Source: an uncultured Bacteroidia bacterium
GTDB taxonomy: Bacteria > Bacteroidota > Bacteroidia > Bacteroidales > UBA932
Reading direction: 5' to 3'
Assembly (NCBI GenBank): GCA_902782225.1
Contig: CACZMF010000004.1
Span: 122,084-186,083 of the forward strand
Length of the DNA: 64,000 bases
The position numbers and the translations under genes were made by a program. The notes beneath the pieces are model-generated. The model was given only the letters and a program-made list of their open reading frames with translations. It ran no database searches and was not told the origin of the DNA. This document shows positions 28,894 through 63,824 of the stretch, one piece after another; positions within the stretch are counted from its first letter, which is position 1; the number at the start of each line of letters is the position of its first letter.

Positions 28894-29886
28894 ATGAACC
28901 TTACAAAAAAACAAATTGATGAACTCAATCTCGAGCTGACCCTTGAGATTGTGCCGGAAGATTACGAAGAAGCAGTCAGGAAAAGACTGGCGGAGCGCAG
29001 GCGCACCGCCGAATTCAAGGGATTCCGCAAGGGTATGGTGCCCGCATCCCTGATCAAGAGGGTTTACGGCGAGCAGGTCCTCGTGGATGCCGTCAATGAA
29101 GTCATCACCACTTCCCTGGACAATTATATCAACGAAAACCAGCTCCATCTGCTGGGCGAGCCTCTCGGAAGCGAGAAGCAGCCGGAGGTGGAATGGGTGG
29201 ACGGCAATTCCTTCACTTTCATTTTCGACGCCGCCATCTCTCCCGAGGTGAAGGTCGGTGTGGAGGCTTCCGACACCGTGAACAAGTATTCCATCACTTC
29301 TTCCGCAAAGGAGAAGGCTTCCATGATAGAGAATATCAAGAAGTACTACGAGGAGAAGAAGGAAGAGGTGAAGTCCGACGAGGAAATCGAGAAGGATGTG
29401 ACCGAGCGCCTCAAGGAAGAGCACAAGCAGGAGGCCGAATGGCGCCTGACCAAGGATATCCGCGATTTCTACGTGGCGAAGGCCGGTATCCAGCTCCCCG
29501 AGGCATTCCTGAAGCGCTGGCTGATTGCAGCCAACCAGGGCAAGATTACTGCCGAAGACGTGGAGAAGGATTTCCCGGGCTTCTGCGAGGATTTCAAGTG
29601 GCAGCTGGTCCGTGGCAAACTGATGAAGGATTTCGGCTTCGACGTGACCCACGACGACCTCTACGAGGCTGCGAAGGCCTATGTGACCTATCAGTATGCG
29701 ATGTACGGCATCGGCAATGTGCCTGAGGATATGATCACCGAGGCCGTGGCCAACATCATGAAGGACCGCCGCCAGCTGGAGCGCCTTTCCGAGCAGGTGG
29801 AAGACAACAAGGTCCTCGGCAAGATCAAGGAGACCATCACCATCAAGGACAAGAAGATCTCCAGCGAAAAGTTCCGCGAGCTTTAG
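28894..29886 (+). CDS. tig: Trigger factor lacking the PPIase domain
   Basis: Ribosome-associated chaperone. 330 residues versus roughly 430-450 in standard trigger factors. The N-terminal ribosome-binding domain is intact, with the GFRKGMVP signature at about residues 48-55. After VNKYSI (about 130) the chain passes directly to the C-terminal helical chaperone arms (EIEKDVTERLKEEHKQEAEWRL...). The roughly 100-residue FKBP-type domain is therefore absent. The frame is open and clean, so this is a domain loss, not a break. It ends before a repeat array. Confidence 0.85.
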   Translation: MNLTKKQIDELNLELTLEIVPEDYEEAVRKRLAERRRTAEFKGFRKGMVPASLIKRVYGEQVLVDAVNEVITTSLDNYINENQLHLLGEPLGSEKQPEVEWVDGNSFTFIFDAAISPEVKVGVEASDTVNKYSITSSAKEKASMIENIKKYYEEKKEEVKSDEEIEKDVTERLKEEHKQEAEWRLTKDIRDFYVAKAGIQLPEAFLKRWLIAANQGKITAEDVEKDFPGFCEDFKWQLVRGKLMKDFGFDVTHDDLYEAAKAYVTYQYAMYGIGNVPEDMITEAVANIMKDRRQLERLSEQVEDNKVLGKIKETITIKDKKISSEKFREL

Positions 29887-29910
29887 CGGGCAGAAACATT
29901 GTCATTTACT

Positions 29911-29996
29911 GCTGCCGCTGGCAAAGATTTCTTTCCAGGAGGAGCATTATCGCCTTTTTTTGCTCCCGCTGGGATAAAAATGATTCCAGCGGGAGC
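29911..29996. repeat. REP-type palindromic array, 2 units, 51-bp period
   Basis: Hairpins start at 29911 (GCTGCCGCTGG, right arm degraded) and 29962 (perfect GCTCCCGCTGG / CCAGCGGGAGC around a 13-nt loop). The 16-bp spacer ATTATCGCCTTTTTTT is close to the one in the 62028 array. It lies between convergent tig and GDPD genes. Confidence 0.85.
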
Positions 29997-30015
29997 ACTT
30001 GTGTAGAATACCCGC

Positions 30016-30975
30016 CTACAGAGTATGCCGGCCTTTCGACTTCAGCCAGCCGATGAGGAGCTCGGGACGGTCGGTCTGGATCATGGAGACTCCCTTGTCG
30101 AGGTACTGCTGATACACGTCGCCCGGGTCCGCTGCCACGTAGGCGGCGTCGTCATCGTTGCCGTAACCGCCGCAGAGGCTTGCCCAGATGGTGTTCACCC
30201 AGATCTTGGAACCCTGGTCGAGGATTTTTTTGCAGGCATCCTCGAAGGCGCCGTCGTTGGTCTGCCAGCACACCTCGTAGGCGAGGGGCACGACGCCCTG
30301 CTCGAGGTAGGAATTGAACAACTCGATTCCCTTCGGCCTCTGGATGTCCACGATGGGCATATACATCATATTGTGCTCATAGGCTGCTTCGTGGGCGGCG
30401 ACCACCTCGATGGGCTTCTTGCCCTTGATGAGGATCTGGTCGGTCACGCCGAGCTCCTCCGTGATGGCAAGCACTTCGTCGTAGAACTCATATCCCTGGT
30501 CCACGTTAACGCAGATGCGGTCCTTGCAGCAGGCGAGGGCCTCGCGGAGCGTCGGCATATGAAGGGTGTCGATGGCGACGTTGTGGGCCCGCTTGAGGCT
30601 CAGGCGCTTGATTTCTTCGAGGGTAAGGTCGCTCACGCGTGCGCTCTTGCCGGGCTCGCCCTTGAACACGCTGCTGAAGTTGGTGCAGCGGGTCACGGTG
30701 CCGTCGTGGCTGAGCACGAGCACGGAATCCTTGGTCATCTTGAGGTCGAGCTCCATGATGTCCGCGCCCATACGGATGATGCTTTCGATGGCGGGAATGG
30801 AATTCTCTGGGAAATTGCGCCAGTCGCCCCGGTGGCAGGTCACGACCACGTATTTGGAATGTGGATCATGGATCTGGGCGGCAATTGCTTCGGCCCTGTT
30901 GGCATACTGCGGGGCGCCTTCCTGGCAGGATGCGAGAGCGAGTGCCGCAGCGATAAAGAAAAGAGTCTTTCTCAT
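30016..30975 (-). CDS. Glycerophosphodiester phosphodiesterase family lipoprotein
   Basis: Hydrolyses glycerophosphodiesters to glycerol 3-phosphate and an alcohol. 319 residues from the ATG at 30975, with lipobox ALASC. GDPD motif residues: CHRGDWRNFPENS (His and Arg), MELDLKMTKDSVLVLSHDG (Glu/Asp metal ligands and second His), and a C-terminal MIQTDRPELLIGWL. The upstream reading frame to 31200 is open but lies inside the M20 gene, so the later start is used. Located on the cell surface or periplasmic side by its lipobox. Confidence 0.9.
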   Translation of the reverse strand: MRKTLFFIAAALALASCQEGAPQYANRAEAIAAQIHDPHSKYVVVTCHRGDWRNFPENSIPAIESIIRMGADIMELDLKMTKDSVLVLSHDGTVTRCTNFSSVFKGEPGKSARVSDLTLEEIKRLSLKRAHNVAIDTLHMPTLREALACCKDRICVNVDQGYEFYDEVLAITEELGVTDQILIKGKKPIEVVAAHEAAYEHNMMYMPIVDIQRPKGIELFNSYLEQGVVPLAYEVCWQTNDGAFEDACKKILDQGSKIWVNTIWASLCGGYGNDDDAAYVAADPGDVYQQYLDKGVSMIQTDRPELLIGWLKSKGRHTL

Positions 30976-38540: not shown

Positions 38541-38577
38541 AAGCGGCCCGGGTTCCAGGAATCCGGGCCGCTTTTTT
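38541..38577 (+). terminator. Intrinsic terminator of rpmE2
   Basis: GCGGCCCGG and CCGGGCCGC arms around an 11-nt loop, followed by TTTTTT (38572-38577). Confidence 0.88.
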
Positions 38578-38579
38578 GT

Positions 38580-38795
38580 GGGCGTGGGCTGGGTGTGGGT
38601 GTGGGTGTGGGTGTGGGCATGGGTGTGGGCATGGGCTGGCCCCGGCCCCTTGTTCCTGGCCCCGGCCCCGGCCCCCGGCCCCTTGTTCCTGGCCCAGGCC
38701 CTCGCCCCCGGCCCCTGGCCCCTTGTTCCTGGCCCAGGCCCTCGCCCCCGGCCCTGAGCCTTGCCTCTGGCCATTAGCCCCATCCCTGCCCCGTC
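38580..38795. repeat. Low-complexity minisatellites: (GGGTGT)n then GGCCC-rich tandem units
   Basis: 38590-38635 is a run of GGGTGT/GGGCAT hexamers. From 38637 to about 38760 come imperfect copies of a unit containing CCCCTTGTTCCTGGCCC, repeated at least three times. No gene is supported here. It leads directly into the palindromic array at 38801. Confidence 0.7.
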
Positions 38796-38800
38796 CTTTT

Positions 38801-39191
38801 GCTCCCGCTGGACGTTTTTTTTGCCCAGCGGCGTCATCCGGAGGCTCTTTTGCTCCCGCCGGAAGTCTTTTCTGCCCAGCGGCATCACCTGGAGGCTCTT
38901 TTGCTCCCGCTGGAAGTCATTCCTGCCCAGCGGCGTCATCAGGAGGCTCTTTTGCTCCCGCTGGAAGTCTTTTCTGCCCAGCGGCGTCACCTGGAGGCTC
39001 TTTTGCTCCCGCTGGAAGTCATTCCTGCCCAGCGGCGTCACCTGGAGGGCCCTTGCTCCCGCTGGAAGTCATTCCTGTCCAGCGGCGTCACCTGGAGACT
39101 CTTTTGCTCCCGCTGGAAGTCATTCCTGCCCAGCGGCATCACCTGGAGGCTCTTTTGCTCCCGCTGGAAGTCATTCCTGCCCAGCGGGAGC
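38801..39191. repeat. REP-type palindromic array, 8 units, 51-bp period (transposase 3' side)
   Basis: Left arms GCTCCCGCTGG recur at 38801, 38852 and onward to 39157; one unit is 50 bp. Loops are AAGTCATTCCTGC or AAGTCTTTTCTGC-like. In the seven internal units the right arm is degraded to CCAGCGGCGTC or CCAGCGGCATC. Only the last unit has the full CCAGCGGGAGC. Spacer: ACCTGGAGGCTCTTTT. Because 51 is a multiple of 3, long shadow ORFs with 17-residue repeats run through it. Confidence 0.9.
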
Positions 39192-39202
39192 AGTATGTGT
39201 GA

Positions 39203-40093
39203 TTATAGCTTTTGGACCGGCCGGTCCAGCAGTTTTGCGGCTTCTTCGTATTTCAGACCGGTGACCCTGGCGAGTTGGTTGACATTGGACGAAAAGCGAT
39301 ACCGTAGTTGGCGCAGAAATTCAACCTTTTGAGTATCATTTAGTTCGCGAAAACCGGCTTTTCCGAAAAGACTTCGGCACAGATCGGGGATAGCTGCAAT
39401 TACGGTCTGATCCCTGAAGGAAGGCAGACTGTCTTCAGACATTTCCATACGCATCCTGGCTTTTGAGGAATACGTAATATAGTAGTGCATTTTCCGTGGG
39501 GACGTGAATACCACCTCTTCCATGTATTTCTTATCCACATAAAAGCTCGGTGAAATATAGCCGGAAGCGTTTAACTGCCATTCTCCGGGGAGAACAATCT
39601 TGCTTTTCAGTCTACGAATGCGCTCCCTGTCTGAAATGTTGGCCAGGGGAAGCCCTTGAACAGGCTGGCAATTGAAATAGACATCACCGGATCCCCAAGG
39701 ATACTGGGTAGGGTAGGAGCATATGTTGGCCGCTACACTGTTGTTGACAACATAAGCCGCCGCCCAAGCTATGCTTTCCGGGTCCATAGGAATCTCACGA
39801 ATGTCGACATCATTGCCCTTGAGGGTTTTCAGGAACCCGTACTTGCGTTGTAAATAGTTGGAATACCGGCTTTTATAACCACTGATGAAATGCTCTGCTT
39901 CTTCCCTGGTGCCGACTATCAGAAAATGAACGTGATTGGACATAAGGATGTGTGCCAGGACTGTGACCTTAGACACGGTGACCTGTACTGCTACATAGTT
40001 CATCCCGACAATGAAGTCTGATTCCTCCCGGAACCACAGGCTGTCCTCCAGATGCTCGGAGGTGACCAGCCACACTTTGATTTCTCTTTTCAT
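39203..40093 (-). CDS. REP-associated tyrosine transposase (RAYT), Y1/HUH superfamily
   Basis: Single-strand DNA transposase related to IS200/IS605 TnpA. 296 residues from the ATG at 40093. The HUH motif is MSNHVHFLIVG (His54, His56). The catalytic-tyrosine helix is SGYKSRYSNYLQRKYG (Tyr77 or Tyr80). A C-terminal helix-turn-helix, NVNQLARVTGLKYEEAAKLL, is typical of RAYTs and not of plain IS200 TnpA. No terminal inverted repeats or TnpB are found; instead palindromic arrays flank it at 38801-39191 and 40166-40506. The gene's base use is visibly more AT-rich than its neighbours, suggesting transfer. It is intact and may be active. Confidence 0.88.
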   Translation of the reverse strand: MKREIKVWLVTSEHLEDSLWFREESDFIVGMNYVAVQVTVSKVTVLAHILMSNHVHFLIVGTREEAEHFISGYKSRYSNYLQRKYGFLKTLKGNDVDIREIPMDPESIAWAAAYVVNNSVAANICSYPTQYPWGSGDVYFNCQPVQGLPLANISDRERIRRLKSKIVLPGEWQLNASGYISPSFYVDKKYMEEVVFTSPRKMHYYITYSSKARMRMEMSEDSLPSFRDQTVIAAIPDLCRSLFGKAGFRELNDTQKVEFLRQLRYRFSSNVNQLARVTGLKYEEAAKLLDRPVQKL

Positions 40094-40165
40094 ACTATCA
40101 TAGTTTAAGTGGGTACGGATACCCGTTATCATTCCCTGCAAAAATAATTATTTTTCCCGTTTTGA

Positions 40166-40506
40166 GCTCCCGCTGGCGTTCTTTTTCTTCCAGCAGGAGC
40201 ACAGCAGGCCAAAACTGCTGCCGCTGGCGGTCTTTTCCTTCCAGCGGGAGCACGGCAGGCCCAAACTGCTTCCGCTGGCGGTCTTTTTCTTCCAGCGAGA
40301 GCACGGCCGGCACAGACTGCTGCCGCTGGCGGTCTTTTTCTTCCAGCGAGAGCACGGCAGGCCCAGACTGCTGCCGCTGGCGGTCTTTTTCATCCAGCGG
40401 GAGCACGGCAGGCCCAAACTGCTGCCGATGGCGGTCTTTTCCTTCCAGCGGGAGCATAACAGGCCCAAACTGCTGCCGCTGGCTATCTTTTTCTTCCAGC
40501 GGCAAC
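40166..40506. repeat. REP-type palindromic array, 7 units, 51-bp period (transposase 5' side)
   Basis: Units start at 40166, 40217, 40268, 40319, 40370, 40421 and 40472, an exact 51-bp register. First left arm is GCTCCCGCTGG, later ones are mostly CTGCCGCTGG. Right arms are CCAGCGGGAGC or CCAGCGAGAGC; the last unit ends CCAGCGGCAAC. Loop like CGGTCTTTTTCTT; spacer like ACGGCAGGCCCAAACT. Fills the region between the transposase start and the small peptide gene. Confidence 0.9.
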
Positions 40507-40552
40507 GGAAGATGACACCAATTAGTAAAATAATCGCTATATTTCGGACAGA

Positions 40553-40696
40553 ATGAGCAAGGCAAGCTGTAAAGTGGTTTATATTCAGCCGGAGGCGGAG
40601 GTCCTGTTGTGGCTTCCGTCCCATGTGCTCGCCTCCAGCTATAATCCCGACGATCACACTGAATACATTGATTATGAAGATGGTGGGCTTATATAG
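40553..40696 (+). CDS. Small peptide of the Bacteroidota YIxPxxEV type
   Basis: 47 residues: it starts MSKASCKVVYIQPEAEVLLW, continues with LPSHVLASS and ends in an acidic tail (DDHTEYIDYEDGGLI). Short proteins with a YIxPxxEV start, an LLASS-like centre and an acidic Gly-rich tail are frequent before lipoprotein or fimbrillin genes in Bacteroidales; I know no proven function. It ends 7 bp before the preferred start of the nuclease gene. A weak -7-like TATATTTC lies just upstream (40538-40545). Confidence 0.6.
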   Translation: MSKASCKVVYIQPEAEVLLWLPSHVLASSYNPDDHTEYIDYEDGGLI

Positions 40697-40703
40697 GAGG
40701 CTT

Positions 40704-42554
40704 ATGGCAGCATATAGGAGACCAGTGGCCGCATATAGCAGGCTATTGGCGGCACTTGTGGCACTTGCGGTCGTGGCGGCTTGTTCGAAGGATTTTGCTC
40801 CCGAGGAACCGGTGGGGGAGTATGTCATGTCCATCGGCGCCCCGGACACGAGTTCCATCGGCGCCCCGGACACGAGTTCCATCGGCGCCCCGGACACGAG
40901 TTCCATCGGCGCCCCGGACGCCAGTTCCATCGGCGCCCCGGACACAAAGTCCATCCTTTCTGAGGATGCCAGGGGCAGATTCGGCCATTGGGAAGCAGGA
41001 GACCGCCTTGGCACTGCTGTCGGCGCCGGCGGTGCCCATTCATATTCCAACATCCAGCCCGGCACCCCTTCCACTTTCAGGATCTACAAGTACGGCGGCA
41101 TTTCGGCCGGAGAGACCGTCTATGCATACTACCCTTATGACAGCGGCACCAAGAGCATGACCGAGGCGCATCTGAAGATCCCCCCGGTGCAGCATCAGGC
41201 CGGCGGCAGCTTCGACTTCGACGCTATGCCAATGGCAGCGGAAGGCTATGTGGTGCCGGAGGGCGTGCTGGCGAGCGGCAACTTCGCCTATCTTGGCGAA
41301 ATGAACCTGATGAACCTCGGCGCAATGATTCAGTTCCAGGTCTTCTCCACGGACTCCCGCTATGCCTCCGAAGTCATCTCCAGCGTGACCTTCAACGCCG
41401 CCATCCCAATCAGCGGCGCCTTCACCAAGGACATCACGGCCATCAGCGCCACGGATGAAAGCACCCTGGCAATCACCGGTCTTTCAAGTACTTCCGTCCA
41501 GACATCGCTCAGCGAGGCGCCATCCCTTGGGACATCCCGCGAGTACGCTGCAGACGTGTACATGGTTGTGGCCCCCGGCCGCTATGGGGGCAGCATAACG
41601 GTCGTGACCGACAAGGCAAGCTACACCTACCAGCTGTCCGACAGGACCTTCCGCCGCTCCGGCATGATCTCCTTCGGCCTCGACCTTGCCACCTGCCGCC
41701 AGCGCCAGACCGGCACGGCATCCGGCGCCACATGGCTCGACTGCCTCGAAGTGCCCGCGGTCGCTCTCGGCACCGGCTCCGGAAGCGGCTACAACGACTC
41801 CAGGGACGACATCTACTGGTATTGGGACGCCGCCGATCCCATGCAGCGAATAGCAACCCACACCTTCTCCATCTCCGAGGAGCGCAGGCGCAACTACACC
41901 GTACTCTTTGACGGCGAAAAGCACTGCCCGCTCTGGACCGCCCACGCAATGCACGCTGAGGCATGGGCCGACACAGGGGTGGACCGCAGCAACAGCTGGG
42001 ACTACGACCCTGCATTCCCCGCTGAATGGCAGCAGACCGGACTCGACAATGCACAGGCTGTGGGCTACAGCAGGGGGCATTTCGTGGCCTCCAACTATCG
42101 CAAGACGACCGACGGACAGAATGCCCAGACCTTCTACCTGACCAACCAGGCGCCCCAGTGGCAGAACAGTTTCAACAGCGGCGTGTGGTCCACACTGGAG
42201 GGGAAGGTCAAAGCGGCAGCCCCCACAGGGTCCGACACCCTCTACGTTGTCACCGGAGTGCTGTTCGAGGGTGAAGAGATGCGCCTTCCCAGCAAAGGCA
42301 TCTCCGTCGCGGTGCCGAGCCATTTCTACAAGTGCCTGATGATGTGCAGCTTCGACAGTTCCGGCTCGATCACCGGCGCTATTGGCAGTGCCTACATTTT
42401 CACCAATGAGGCACATCCGGGCGCAAACTATGCCGACGAATCCTTTGCGACCACTATCGACGCCATCGAGGCCCGCGCCGGCTTCGATTTCTTCCCCCGC
42501 GTGCCGGCAGAAATGCAAAATGCCGCGGAGGCGGTCTCCACGGCACTTTTCTAA
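40704..42554 (+). CDS. Secreted lipoprotein: fimbrillin-like domain fused to DNA/RNA non-specific endonuclease
   Basis: 616 residues from the ATG at 40704, chosen because GGAGG precedes it, it clears the small ORF, and it gives a standard lipoprotein signal ending VVAAC. In-frame ATGs at 40674 and 40680 are alternatives. A five-copy octapeptide repeat SIGAPDTS follows, then a fimbrillin-like beta domain (about 60-330). The C-terminal domain (about 345-616) is NucA-like: YSRGHFVASNYRK stands for the DRGH catalytic block with Asp replaced by Ser, and NQAPQWQNSFN supplies the metal-binding Asn. It would degrade extracellular nucleic acid for nutrition or defence. Confidence 0.85.
   Translation: MAAYRRPVAAYSRLLAALVALAVVAACSKDFAPEEPVGEYVMSIGAPDTSSIGAPDTSSIGAPDTSSIGAPDASSIGAPDTKSILSEDARGRFGHWEAGDRLGTAVGAGGAHSYSNIQPGTPSTFRIYKYGGISAGETVYAYYPYDSGTKSMTEAHLKIPPVQHQAGGSFDFDAMPMAAEGYVVPEGVLASGNFAYLGEMNLMNLGAMIQFQVFSTDSRYASEVISSVTFNAAIPISGAFTKDITAISATDESTLAITGLSSTSVQTSLSEAPSLGTSREYAADVYMVVAPGRYGGSITVVTDKASYTYQLSDRTFRRSGMISFGLDLATCRQRQTGTASGATWLDCLEVPAVALGTGSGSGYNDSRDDIYWYWDAADPMQRIATHTFSISEERRRNYTVLFDGEKHCPLWTAHAMHAEAWADTGVDRSNSWDYDPAFPAEWQQTGLDNAQAVGYSRGHFVASNYRKTTDGQNAQTFYLTNQAPQWQNSFNSGVWSTLEGKVKAAAPTGSDTLYVVTGVLFEGEEMRLPSKGISVAVPSHFYKCLMMCSFDSSGSITGAIGSAYIFTNEAHPGANYADESFATTIDAIEARAGFDFFPRVPAEMQNAAEAVSTALF
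40832..40953 (+). repeat. 24-bp coding minisatellite (SIGAPDTS x5)
   Basis: Five near-identical 24-bp copies of the form TCCATCGGCGCCCCGGACAC plus AGT/GAGT in the nuclease lipoprotein gene, in frame. Lies right after the lipobox, so copy number would change the tether length. Confidence 0.85.
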
Positions 42555-59821: not shown

Positions 59822-61860
59822 GGGAGAGGTTTGCCACTGGATTCGACCCGTTCGTGCTGCCGTTCCTCATCGGAATGGTGTTCGTGCTCGGATACTGCTT
59901 TTTCGGCATATTCCGTATCCTGTACCAGTTGCCGAAAGACGACCGGCGCCGTTTCCTGGTGTCGCTGATTACTCCCCGCACGGCCCTTAAGAATGTATGG
60001 GACATTTTCTGCAACTGCCTGCTGCACGTCAAGTTATGGAAGCGTAACAAGCTTCTGGGCTTTATGCACTCTTCCATTGCGTTCGGCTGGTTCATGATCA
60101 TACTCCTGGGGCATCTGGAGGTCTTTATCTACTGCCCGGAGCGGGTGCATCTTTTCTATTATCCCATCTTTTTCAACTACTTTGTGGCGGAGAATGAGTC
60201 CACCATCGGGGGAGCGGTGCTCTTCTTCCTGATGGACTTTTTCCTCCTGCTGATACTGACCGGAATCGGCCTGGCGATCGTCAAGCGCGTACGTTCCCGT
60301 TTCTTCGGCATGCGCCGCACCACGAGGCCCAGCCTGCTCGACCGCGTGGGACTTTATTCGCTCTGGGCCATTTTCCCGCTCAGGCTGCTTGCCGAGAGCT
60401 TCACGGCCCACATCAGCGGCGGCTCCTTCCTCACCATCCCGGCCAACTGGGTGTTCCGGCAGTTCCTGGGTAACGACCTGAACCTTCTGCCTACCTGGTG
60501 GGCCTACAGCATTGTCCTGGGCGTGTTTATGGTGGTGCTGCCGTTCACCAGGTATATGCATATCCCGGCGGAGATGATGCTCATCCCCATGCGCAACGCC
60601 GGGCTCCGCATCAGGCATCCGCGCAAGGGCTTTGCCAAGGTGCAGGTGCTGAGTTGCCCGGGGTGCGGCGTGTGCATCGACGCCTGCCCGATGAGCGCGC
60701 AGAAGGTCAATATCAAGGACTGCACGGTCTATCTCAACCGCCAGATCCGGCGCGGCAACGAGAAGCGCATCGAGGAGATCAGCGACAAGTGCCTGCTTTG
60801 CGGCAAGTGCGAGGCGGTCTGCCAGGTGGGGGTCGAGGGGCCCAGGATGCGGGTGGCTCAGCGCTCCGCCCGCCGCTACGGCCTGACCCCGGACTTCGCC
60901 GCCATCGACACGGCGCCGCTCTCCCGTGCCGCTTCTGCGGCTTTTTCCGGTGCTGCCGGTGCTACTGGTGCTGCCGGTGCTGCCGGTGCTGCTGCTGGTG
61001 CTGCTGGCGTTGCTGGTGCTGCTGGTGCTGCCGGTGCTTCTGGTGCTTCCGGTGTTGCTGGTGCTGCCGGTGGCGCCGGTGTCGCTGCTGGTGCTGCTGG
61101 TGTTGCTGGTGCTGCTGGCGCTGCTGGTGCTGCTGGTGCTGCTGGTGCTGCCGCTGCTGGTGTTGCTGGTGCTTCGAAGGTAGCGTTTTTCTCGGGGTGT
61201 ATGACGCGGCTCACTCCCTCGGTCGGGAAGGCGGTGTGCTCACTTCTCGACAAGGCCGGTGCCGACTATGTCTGGTTGGACAGGGAGGAAGGACTCTGCT
61301 GCGGCCGCCCGCTTCTTACCGCCGGGCGCATCGACGCGGCTATCTCGCTGATACGCAAGAACGAGGAGGTCATTCTGGGCAGCGGCGCCGACACCCTTGT
61401 GCTGAGCTGCCCCATCTGTTATAAGATGTTCTCGGAGCGTTATGCCCTGCCGGGCGTGAGGGTGGTAAGCTATGCCGACTATTTCGATGAATTCGTGCAG
61501 CAGGGGAGACTCAGGTTTGAGAAGAGCGACATCTGCTACGTCTACCACGATCCTTGCGAGCTTGGGCGCGGGTGCGGTATCTATGAATCTCCGCGCAGAC
61601 TCCTGGGCCAGGCCGCCGGCATTGCCGAGGCGGAGAAGAACCGTGAGGAGAGCGTCTGCTGCGGCGGGTCGCTCGGCAGCCTCACCCTCGATTTCGCCCA
61701 CCGGGAGGTCATCACTCGCAAGTCGCTGGAGAACCTGTACTCCAGCCGAGCCGACGCCATCGCCACCGCCTGCCCCCTCTGCCTCTCCACCTTCCGCCGC
61801 TACAGCGACCGCCCCGTCCGCGACCTCGCCGAGATCCTCGACGCCTCCTGCCGCCTCTGA
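59818..61860 (+). CDS. Membrane-anchored HdrD-like reductase with Gly-Ala minisatellite linker
   Basis: 680 residues. Residues 1-260 have about five transmembrane helices of NarI/cytochrome b type (first FVLPFLIGMVFVLGYCFF). Residues about 280-355 carry two ferredoxin motifs (CPGCGVCIDACP, CLLCGKCEAVCQ). A roughly 80-residue linker (about 370-450) consists almost only of Gly, Ala, Val, Ser and Thr. The C-terminal region has two complete CCG sites: FSGCM/LCCGRP/SCPICYK and DPCELG/VCCGGS/ACPLCLS. Likely transfers electrons between menaquinol and a disulfide or similar substrate through the other Hdr subunits. Same architecture class as DsrK/HdrDE/TmcB; substrate unknown. Confidence 0.88.
   Translation: MRERFATGFDPFVLPFLIGMVFVLGYCFFGIFRILYQLPKDDRRRFLVSLITPRTALKNVWDIFCNCLLHVKLWKRNKLLGFMHSSIAFGWFMIILLGHLEVFIYCPERVHLFYYPIFFNYFVAENESTIGGAVLFFLMDFFLLLILTGIGLAIVKRVRSRFFGMRRTTRPSLLDRVGLYSLWAIFPLRLLAESFTAHISGGSFLTIPANWVFRQFLGNDLNLLPTWWAYSIVLGVFMVVLPFTRYMHIPAEMMLIPMRNAGLRIRHPRKGFAKVQVLSCPGCGVCIDACPMSAQKVNIKDCTVYLNRQIRRGNEKRIEEISDKCLLCGKCEAVCQVGVEGPRMRVAQRSARRYGLTPDFAAIDTAPLSRAASAAFSGAAGATGAAGAAGAAAGAAGVAGAAGAAGASGASGVAGAAGGAGVAAGAAGVAGAAGAAGAAGAAGAAAAGVAGASKVAFFSGCMTRLTPSVGKAVCSLLDKAGADYVWLDREEGLCCGRPLLTAGRIDAAISLIRKNEEVILGSGADTLVLSCPICYKMFSERYALPGVRVVSYADYFDEFVQQGRLRFEKSDICYVYHDPCELGRGCGIYESPRRLLGQAAGIAEAEKNREESVCCGGSLGSLTLDFAHREVITRKSLENLYSSRADAIATACPLCLSTFRRYSDRPVRDLAEILDASCRL
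60950..61174 (+). repeat. Coding triplet/9-bp minisatellite (GGTGCTGCT-like)
   Basis: Uninterrupted GCTGGTGCTGCC-type repeats in the HdrD-like gene, giving long Gly-x-x stretches such as GAAGAAGAA. Imperfect 9-bp copies with phase shifts. Its opposite strand shows an Ala-Pro-rich open frame that is only a shadow. Confidence 0.85.
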
Positions 61861-62027
61861 GCCGACGCCCCTGAGCTGCTGCCGCTGCCCCTGAGCCGCC
61901 GCCTGCCGCCTCTGAGCTGCCTTCTGCCGCCTCTGAGCTGCCTTCTGCCGCCTCTGAGCTGCCGCCGCTGAGCTGCCGCCGCTGAGCTGCCTCCTGCCGC
62001 CACTGAGCTGCTCCCGCCACTGCCACT
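61861..62027. repeat. Tandem CTGAGCTGCCTTCTGCCGCCT-like minisatellite
   Basis: Directly after the HdrD-like stop. Units of about 21-24 bp sharing CTGAGCTGCC and CTGCCGCC; the last ones shade into TGCCACTGCTCCCGCTGG, the left edge of the palindromic array at 62028. No gene is supported here. Confidence 0.7.
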
Positions 62028-62266
62028 GCTCCCGCTGGCAAGGATTTCCTTCCAGGGGGAGCAATATCTCCCGTTTTCGCTCCCGCTGGCATTATTATTC
62101 TTCCAGCGGCAGCAATATCGCCCGTTTTCGCTCCCGCTGGCATTATTACTCTTCCAGCGGCAGCATTATCGCCCGTTTTCGCTCCCGCTGGCATTATTAT
62201 TCTTCCAGCGGCAGCAATATCGCCCGTTTTCGCTCCCGCTGGCGTTATTATTCTTCCAGCGGCAGC
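62028..62266. repeat. REP-type palindromic array, 5 units, exact 51-bp period
   Basis: Left arms GCTCCCGCTGG at 62028, 62079, 62130, 62181 and 62232. Right arms CCAGCGGCAGC (first unit CCAGGGGGAGC). Loop CATTATTATTCTT; spacer AATATCGCCCGTTTTC. Four copies are nearly identical, so amplification is recent. Lies between the Hdr operon and the DMT transporter. 62267-62365 holds nothing I can assign. Confidence 0.9.
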
Positions 62267-62365
62267 ACCTTGATCCGTGTAAGGTGACATGGATGTGGTA
62301 GTCCATCAATTCGAAAGTCAGGACGACGATGCCGGGGAACAAGACTAAGATATGATTTTATTTGA

Positions 62366-63487: not shown

Positions 63488-63581
63488 AAAATCCTTCACG
63501 ATTAGCAGGAAAAACCTTGCCAGCGGGAGCGAATACGGGCGATATTGCTCCTCCTGGAAGGAAATCCTTGCCAGCAGGAGC
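63488..63581. repeat. REP-type palindromic array, about 2 units, 51-bp period, inverted orientation
   Basis: GCCAGCGGGAGC at 63519 and GCCAGCAGGAGC at 63570 are exactly 51 bp apart. The intervening spacer GAATACGGGCGATATT is the reverse complement of the 62028 spacer type. So this is the same subfamily in the opposite orientation on the other side of the DMT gene. The first hairpin is degraded on its left arm. Confidence 0.8.
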
Positions 63582-63584
63582 AGT

Positions 63585-63632
63585 GGCAGTGGTAATGGTA
63601 ATGGTAATGGTAATGGTAATGGCAATGGTAAT
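63585..63632 (+). repeat. (GGTAAT)n hexanucleotide repeat
   Basis: About seven GGTAAT/GGCAAT units following GGCAGT; in frame with the downstream fragment they encode (Gly-Asn)n. Confidence 0.85.
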
Positions 63633-63824
63633 GGCGGAGACTATCTGGCAGACTGGCGTGGTACCGAGTCGTATGGCTACGTATGGAACTACAAAGAGAA
63701 GGCCAATGCGGCAGATGAGGCAGGAATGTTTAGATTGGCAGAAACATTGAGGAAGATAGCAAGTGATTATCATGACGAGGGCGAGCATAATATTAAATAT
63801 GGACGCAGCTTTGATTCAGAATAA
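63633..63824 (+). pseudogene. 3' fragment of an unknown gene
   Basis: An open frame ends with TAA near 63824 and reads GGDYLADWRGTESYGYVW, then NYKEKANAADEAGMFRLAETLRK, then a hydrophilic end GRSFDSE. It looks like a genuine protein C-terminus with less GC-rich codons than the rest of the window. Upstream in frame lie only the Gly-Asn repeat and the palindromic repeats, then a stop at 63453. There is no in-frame ATG before the fragment's own Met. I take it as a remnant left after repeat insertion; a functional short product is unlikely. Family not recognised. Confidence 0.5.

Follow-up and report, generated by a model that had tools for sequence, protein, structure and literature searches.

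The window, a stretch of 64,000 nucleotides from an uncultured Bacteroidia bacterium, very probably holds a REP/RAYT-type system in which an HUH/Y1 transposase is paired with a cognate miniature double-hairpin element of ~88-90 bp. The system would be a so far undescribed form of REP/RAYT, marked by the lack of a GTAG tag, the lack of WQ residues, a long C-terminal helical part in the enzyme, and a rigid spacing of the hairpins. The unit has defined boundaries and covarying stems, and its stem families are matched to individual transposase genes. Alike copies in unrelated flanks record past spread, and the locus of gene plus element has been gained or lost among relatives.

A transposase gene between hairpin arrays

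The initial annotation had placed the transposase gene between arrays of eight and seven hairpins, and TRF together with counts of left arms confirmed this placement (Table 1). TRF puts the 51-bp arrays at 38796-39187 (array A, score of 630), 40166-40502 (array B, 527), and 62028-62267 (array C). The fixed unit of 51 bp that it described holds for nearly all steps: the six steps between the seven left arms of array B are of 51 bp each, and those between the eight counted in array A are of 51, 51, 51, 51, 50, 51, and 51 bp, with one exception of 50 bp. TRF also describes array A in periods of 152 bp, one base short of three units, a length that would be compatible with growth of the array in blocks. 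The arms of 11 bp are a fair description of some units only. Long arms do occur, and those of the array A end unit nearest the gene reach 12 bp, but the inner units of this array pair perfectly over just 7 bp (CCGCTGG/CCAGCGG), because their right foot is GCGTCA or GCATCA and not GGGAGCA. Both arrays are real, but they had been listed without array C (five left arms, all steps of 51 bp), the two-hairpin copy at 29908-29999, and the degenerate copy at 63522-63584. Between arrays A and B the unlike arms run, by eye, in opposite senses, and the comparison of the loops of the two arrays is weak (10 vs. 7). The ends nearest the gene had been suggested to be the functional ones; by eye, this agrees at array A with an outer terminus like that at C10 (GGGAGCAGT), whereas array B has no such terminus at either end. 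When six strands of five elements were folded as single-stranded DNA, five did better than all of 200 dinucleotide shuffles (z from -3.70 to -10.26), and the sixth (40418-40509, minus strand) was equalled by 3 of 200 (z -2.35).

Table 1. Features of the window. R1 is the covariance model of the double hairpin.
Feature	Position	Strand	Basis
HUH/Y1 RAYT-like transposase, 296 aa	39203..40093	minus	translation, profile matches, conserved residues, AF2, Foldseek
Array A, 8 hairpins, 3' side of transposase gene	38798..39194	no strand	TRF, R1, left-arm count
Array B, 7 hairpins, 5' side of transposase gene	40163..40509	no strand	TRF, R1, left-arm count
Array C, 5 hairpins, stem family of arrays A and B, without adjoining transposase	62025..62269		TRF, R1, left-arm count
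Dispersed two-hairpin element between two convergent genes	29908..29999		R1 match
Degenerate element copy, 63 bp	63522..63584		R1 match
Gene-plus-array stretch (GC-rich minisatellite, array A, gene, array B), approximate extent	38578..40600		absent in five relatives

To the left, the locus is bordered by what we take to be an rpmE-like gene, with a terminator at about 38577, and to the right by a small ORF at 40623 ahead of a presumably endonuclease-like gene. The dispersed two-hairpin element lies beside a gene at 28894-29886 (plus strand) that we assume from its translation to be trigger-factor-like (tig), and the gene convergent to it, ending at 30016, is, on the same grounds, presumably phosphodiesterase-like.

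The recurrent unit is a double hairpin

Genome contigs were scanned, and the best 80 of 331 relatives of the transposase were used. Apart from L062 (Clostridia), their source records give uncultured or MAG Bacteroidales or Bacteroidia, and many of them name rumen, omasum, reticulum, or abomasum. With 7 loci from the same genome as the window and 29 from the same genus, this gave 116 loci and 229 usable flanks, a set in which some genes are counted twice (one contig from two collections). The best self-similarity lag in the range 20-120 was 51 in 90 flanks, 52 in 50, and 53 in 4, that is, in 144 of the 229. When hairpins were found first and their distance measured after, 54 of the 57 pairs with like stems within 350 bp of the gene were 51-53 bp apart. 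Five letter shuffles of the 229 flanks gave no such pair, and control stretches 1000-1350 bp from the gene gave one in 2 of 217, both at 51. A joint score, in which only lags 48-55 were allowed and which was calibrated by letter shuffles of every third locus (77 flanks), exceeded every shuffled flank in 150 of the 229, 145 of these at 51-53. At least one side of 103 of the 116 loci, and both sides of 47, exceeded the shuffles; the two-hairpin unit is thus often, but not always, present. Chance hairpins are rejected by the distance test and by the free lag test, since the lag of 51-53 recurs in 144 of the 229 flanks.

The initial annotation took the tandem array as the defining form, and this has to be revised: what recurs in the flanks of relatives is the two-hairpin unit. 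The basic unit is a double hairpin of ~88-90 bp, found near the gene in most relatives examined, and the arrays look like expansions of it.

Other spacings were also encountered. A search controlled with dinucleotide shuffles found 66-bp repeats beside L017, L066, and L069; as the unit beside L017 (C26, own genome) this repeat was rejected, R1 giving there matches of 94 bp with a spacing of about 53. The distant own-genome paralogues L019 and L021 (= L225, L228) have like hairpins 72-73 bp apart, about two helical turns beyond 51-52. Most of the distant family members looked at are also outside the rule of 51-52; L242, which has 52, follows it.

Anatomy and covariation of the unit

A consensus was made from 75 of 145 stretches, of which 127 were distinct, 110 had an integer centre, and 98 were in register; the final 75 units (60 at 51 and 15 at 52) remained after removal of cores more than 80% identical. 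The unit consists of a 37-nt hairpin, a spacer of 14 bp in the 51 class or 15 bp in the 52 class, and a second 37-nt hairpin, so that the centres are 51 or 52 bp apart; in one stem family of the own genome they are about 53 bp apart. All 75 units have G as the second base of hairpin 1, and nearly all have C as the last base but one of both hairpins. The sides of the spacer are A/T-rich, and its centre in the 51 class is GGCC (77-82% per base). Conservation falls near background from 2 nt outside the double hairpin. The clearest outer conservation is in the two bases before the unit (51 class: A 53%, G 65%), and the two bases after it are weaker (C 52%, T 52%). Across the family, the termini read roughly AGTG...CACT and are the outer feet of the double hairpin. 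A GTAG foot (5' GT[AG]G) is not the consensus in these 75 units, in which the foot is mostly AG and then TG.

Changes on both sides were seen in 28 of 30 stem pairs, and 84.5% of stem cells are paired, vs. 60.9% in shuffles and 33-43% with slid partners. This covariation is a constraint on dyad symmetry and fits double-stranded dyad sites as well as single-stranded hairpins. The loops of the two hairpins are alike in the direct sense in 49 units and in the inverted sense in 21, with 5 tied.

A RAYT-like transposase

The window protein has the HUH motif S-N-H54-V-H56, and its catalytic tyrosine is assigned by motif to Tyr114. All 89 aligned members (279-322 aa, median 292) have H54, H56, and Y114, and 88 have N118. 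Taken alone, the protein scores below the cut-offs of both the NCBIfam model REP_Tyr_transpos (NF047646; E 3.4e-5, 23.7 bits vs. a cut-off of 80) and Pfam Y1_Tnp (19.9 bits vs. 23). Among the 89 members, NF047646 is matched by 85 at E<=1e-3 (best 4.7e-13), Y1_Tnp by 83, and the IS200 model by 3. The AF2 model (mean pLDDT 93.1, pTM 0.74) has as its top Foldseek match by E-value the RAYT-REP complex 4er8 (E 5.0e-4, query TM 0.34), followed by a small margin by IS608 from rank 2 onward (E 7.3e-4, query TM 0.29); normalised by target, TM is 0.57 for 4er8 and up to 0.62 for IS608 chains. Judged from sequence models, and only slightly from the fold, the enzyme would belong on the RAYT side and not with plain IS200 TnpA, in agreement with the initial annotation, which had read the gene as an HUH (RAYT) transposase paired with palindromic arrays.

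No member of the 89 has WQ or WE within 35 residues before Tyr114, and the missing WQ is in step with the missing GTAG tag. The commonest form of the tyrosine motif is Y-V-x-M-N-C/S, with Pro at the position of YIH[QN]NP in 9 of 89. A C-terminal helical part starts at about residue 155 and is predicted to end in three helices (253-267, 271-278, 282-290), with Q273 and R276 invariant. From the helix pattern this end may be helix-turn-helix-like; no HTH model was matched in the profile search of members.

These helices raise the question of whether the palindromes are double-stranded operators for the C-terminal part, serving auto-regulation or chromosome organising, with mobility incidental. 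The predicted end helices with their two invariant residues would suit such a role, 51-52 bp is about five helical turns, and dyad covariation is the same for single- and double-stranded recognition. However, operator binding has no need of the HUH histidines and tyrosine that are invariant in every aligned member, nor does it account for alike copies in unrelated flanks, and we regard it as unlikely.

Dispersed copies in the genome

The covariance model R1 was built from 44 of 47 units, leaving out L050, which looked mis-registered, and the arrays L070 and L094. A pattern for the single hairpin with 3 mismatches had given 387 places per strand vs. 543 for the reversed pattern, i.e., mostly noise, which is why the double-hairpin model was used instead; one exact single-hairpin match (C16:27956) was dropped since it lies inside a long ORF. 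In the own genome, 150 of 472 candidates were scored with R1 at a threshold of E<=1e-3. The genome-wide search that the initial annotation called for thus finds the hairpins elsewhere: there are at least 28 places, two of those listed being short (63 and 80 bp), of which 6 flank three close transposases and at least 22 are without a gene. Two further sites (E 0.0098 and 0.026) resemble families B and C.

By eye, the 22 listed gene-less places are divided into stem family A (CCGCTGG, 12 places), family B (GGAGGTGTCC, 5), and family C (ACCGGTCCA, 3, one of them weak), with 2 in no family. Each family corresponds to one transposase gene, having the stem found in its flanks: A that at C4 (in the window), B that at C1:82529, and C that at C26:11718. 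Copies of family A at C4 and C5 sites are 90-93% identical, and the 90-bp flanks of copies have a mean of 0.54 in global alignment, hardly above the 0.525 between A and B units. Three C2 copies are even 97-99% identical. They are weaker evidence of spread because all three are within 4 kb, the sequence around them is repetitive, and two of them share 21 identical bases beyond one end, vs. 3-6 at other junctions; these most alike copies may come from local duplication. One family-B pair is also alike in its right flank, which is a separate repeat.

By a crude ORF call, the 22 listed places include 7 convergent, 7 same-strand, and 3 divergent intergenic sites, the others being unclear, and this placement speaks neither for nor against operator sites. 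Four gene-less copies (C1:88133, C6:57834, C6:35981, and C5:197989) begin or end no more than about 7 bases from a predicted stop codon, as one would want if the arrays and pairs were intrinsic terminators, or mRNA-stabilising hairpins, that were spread by another element. T occupies the first three spacer positions in 32-43% of units, but A prevails over T at those positions in the 51-bp set (53-65%), the bases after hairpin 2 on the other strand are A in 62-72%, and the consensus of the outer flanks has no T-run. The stem families, moreover, go with individual transposases. We find this explanation scarcely credible and keep to a transposase with its cognate element.

Gain or loss of the locus and range of the family

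A search for the genes neighbouring the transposase locus covered 14 genomes. The matched neighbours are separated by 105-161 bp in G027, G113, G111, and G011, vs. about 2.05-2.11 kb here, and by 321 bp in G160, vs. 2.39 kb; R1 has no match at the neighbour-gene locus of any of the five. In these five relatives the site is present but lacks both gene and unit. Both neighbours together were not found in the other nine, and in G153 a different gene stands, by eye, beside rpmE. G153 also offers a comparison for the element at 29908-29999, being the closest relative at that site, with flanking genes 86-87% identical: the two gene ends run directly together, and the two-hairpin element between the trigger-factor-like and phosphodiesterase-like genes has no counterpart there. 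It is not a clean empty site, because the whole intergenic stretch differs. R1 gave no match in G153 (about 76% complete), but a transposase frame is present there (G153:C17:28362-29219), 46% identical and interrupted by one stop. For the copy at C5:197989 no empty-site comparison was found, the flanks not being conserved.

The loss or gain of a whole locus at one site would also be expected of an active insertion sequence of the IS200/IS605 type that moves as gene plus ends, the flanking hairpin groups being these ends. The upstream and downstream units of a locus do tend to share one orientation (30 direct, 6 inverted, and 3 tied among 39 loci, some counted twice), and the fold scores to IS608 are nearly equal to those of the RAYT. 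Yet the other transposase genes of the own genome nearest to that of the window are only 49-50% identical to it, which implies no recent copies; near-identical copies of the gene were not found in this genome, a single strain about 92% complete. Elements without a gene occupy at least 22 places vs. 3 close genes, and the RAYT model is matched by 85 of 89 members vs. 3 for IS200. An insertion sequence of this kind is therefore very unlikely, and a RAYT-type enzyme with gene-less elements is retained.

The association of enzyme and element extends over the genus. Among 101 genomes of the same genus, searched with R1 under stricter filters and 42 candidates scored per genome, elements occur in 45 of the 49 with a strong transposase match (E<=1e-60) vs. 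13 of the 52 without (Fisher p 3.3e-12), a cut chosen after the list was seen; at E<=1e-30 the figures are 49 of 63 vs. 9 of 38 (p 1.1e-7). These statistics ignore kinship, and the association is partly built in because the elements flank the transposase gene themselves. There are exceptions in both directions at E<=1e-60, with 13 genomes having elements without a strong match and 4 a strong match without elements. The hairpins are thus not equally common without the transposase; equal occurrence was the result that the initial annotation had named as damaging to its proposal.

Stem sequence tends to follow the enzyme. In 74 of 85 usable loci, those with the same protein core having been removed, distances between stems correlate with those between proteins (Mantel r 0.323, 0 of 2000 permutations), and the nearest relative has equal spacing in 57 of 71 cases (chance fraction 0.59). 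As for range, only the own genome was matched at E<=1e-30 across 295 genomes of the class, no other genome of the family being among those listed; in 119 genomes of the family, 54 have a match at 1e-20. The close form of the transposase (E<=1e-104) is found in four genera. The distant form has a wider spread, with up to 12 matches in one genome, and is mostly without the spacing of 51-52 in the loci looked at.

Relation to known systems and proposed mechanism

As described in the parts of PMC3116915 used here, two palindromes are the proposed replicative unit of the REPIN/RAYT systems of Pseudomonas, with preferred distances of 71 and 110 bp, each RAYT has its own adjoining unit family, and some units are in tandem clusters. 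The present system is similar in having a pair of palindromes, a preferred distance, a unit family of its own for each gene, and tandem clusters. However, two inverted REPs form one long hairpin in that description, whereas here each palindrome is its own hairpin, the loops are more often direct than inverted, and the spacing is 51-52 bp. The GTAG and CGTC REPs, of which the GTAG kind is tied to tyrosine transposases, are likewise short palindromes that occur as dimers and clusters (the excerpted text of PMC3733652), as here, but our consensus has no GTAG tag.

A further comparison is with subclass 2.6 of the TnpA-REP proteins, which in the sections of PMC6006769 cited is mostly from Bacteroidetes, has an HUH motif N-H-x-H and no GT[AG]G tag, and has 'atypical secondary structures' beside the gene that recur at other places in the genome. 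Host, HUH motif, and tag-less structures both at the gene and dispersed are features in common. In contrast, the members described here (median 292) are longer than the table values of subclasses 2.2 (165) and 2.6 (179), subclass 2.3 having 325, and where 2.6 has YIH[QN]NP and a WQ motif (same sections of PMC6006769), Y-V-x-M-N-C/S is the commonest form here and WQ/WE is found in 0 of 89. By the features tested, the system is neither a canonical GTAG REP nor subclass 2.6, the latter judged by length and by the motifs described in those sections. With the IS200/IS605 TnpA proteins (IS608, ISDra2) it shares the HUH/Y1 fold and flanking hairpins, and it departs from them in the matching sequence model, the lack of recent gene copies, and the gene-less elements. 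No description of a 51-bp double-hairpin unit was found among the open-licence papers listed, supplements aside.

By analogy with the biochemistry of RAYT and IS200/IS605 proteins, in the parts of PMC8266576 and PMC6006769 that bear on it, a mechanism may be proposed that involves 1) capture of both hairpins by the enzyme on single-stranded DNA, probably the lagging-strand template; 2) cutting by Tyr114, which would occur at the outer feet of the double hairpin; and 3) strand transfer of the unit, which would reach new, mostly intergenic sites. We further suggest that the constant distance between the hairpins positions them for two protomers or for two successive cuts, and that long arrays could have grown out of the two-hairpin unit as whole 51-bp steps were added, via unequal exchange or slippage between like hairpins, or via aberrant processing.

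A bolder reading, which we offer tentatively and hold at less than even confidence, is that this is a RAYT subclass outside the comparable ones of 2018, centred on one Bacteroidales family, that has swapped the GTAG guide for a spacing code of 51-52 nt read by a two-part enzyme, leaving the stem free to change. If so, the mobile unit would be two hairpins at a fixed 51-52 nt, the HUH domain and the C-terminal helical part would read the hairpins together, and the stem sequence could change with its cognate enzyme.

How RAYTs recognise and move palindromes is still an open question, and the mechanisms of REP dissemination are called poorly understood in the portion of PMC8266576 cited. The 2018 survey, in the sections used, presents the GTAG-less atypical structures of Bacteroidetes without a description of their unit (PMC6006769). 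New here are a defined unit, its boundaries, and a model that detects it. There are dozens of natural pairs of enzyme and element in which the stem varies and the spacing is kept, which makes it possible to tell recognition by sequence from recognition by geometry experimentally.

Neighbouring repeats

Several elements are found next to other short repeats. Three family-B units (L160, L161, and L167, at C1:88133, C6:57834, and C25:5434) abut, to within a few bases, one other short repeat, GATTCTTCGCTGCGCTCAGAATGACA-like, which is perhaps a preferred target or part of a composite repeat. Just past another family-B unit, at about 1675-1793 of L162 (C6:36074-36193), there is a run of GGCGCAGGTC-type repeats, the stem of which resembles that flanking the distant paralogue at C7.

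In the window, GC-rich minisatellites with GTGGGC and GGCCCC-type units fill 38577-38760, between the terminator of the rpmE-like gene and array A, and are part of the stretch missing in relatives. At 40830-40945, in a 643-aa ORF that we take to be endonuclease-like, a 24-bp repeat (4.8 copies, 96% matches) encodes tandem SIGAPDTS-like peptides close to the N-terminus. Short tandem repeats rich in CTGCCGCC stand directly ahead of array C (61866-62011), TGGTAA repeats directly follow the degenerate unit (63584-63634), and a 9-bp GGTGCTGCT repeat is present in about 25 copies at 60949-61173.
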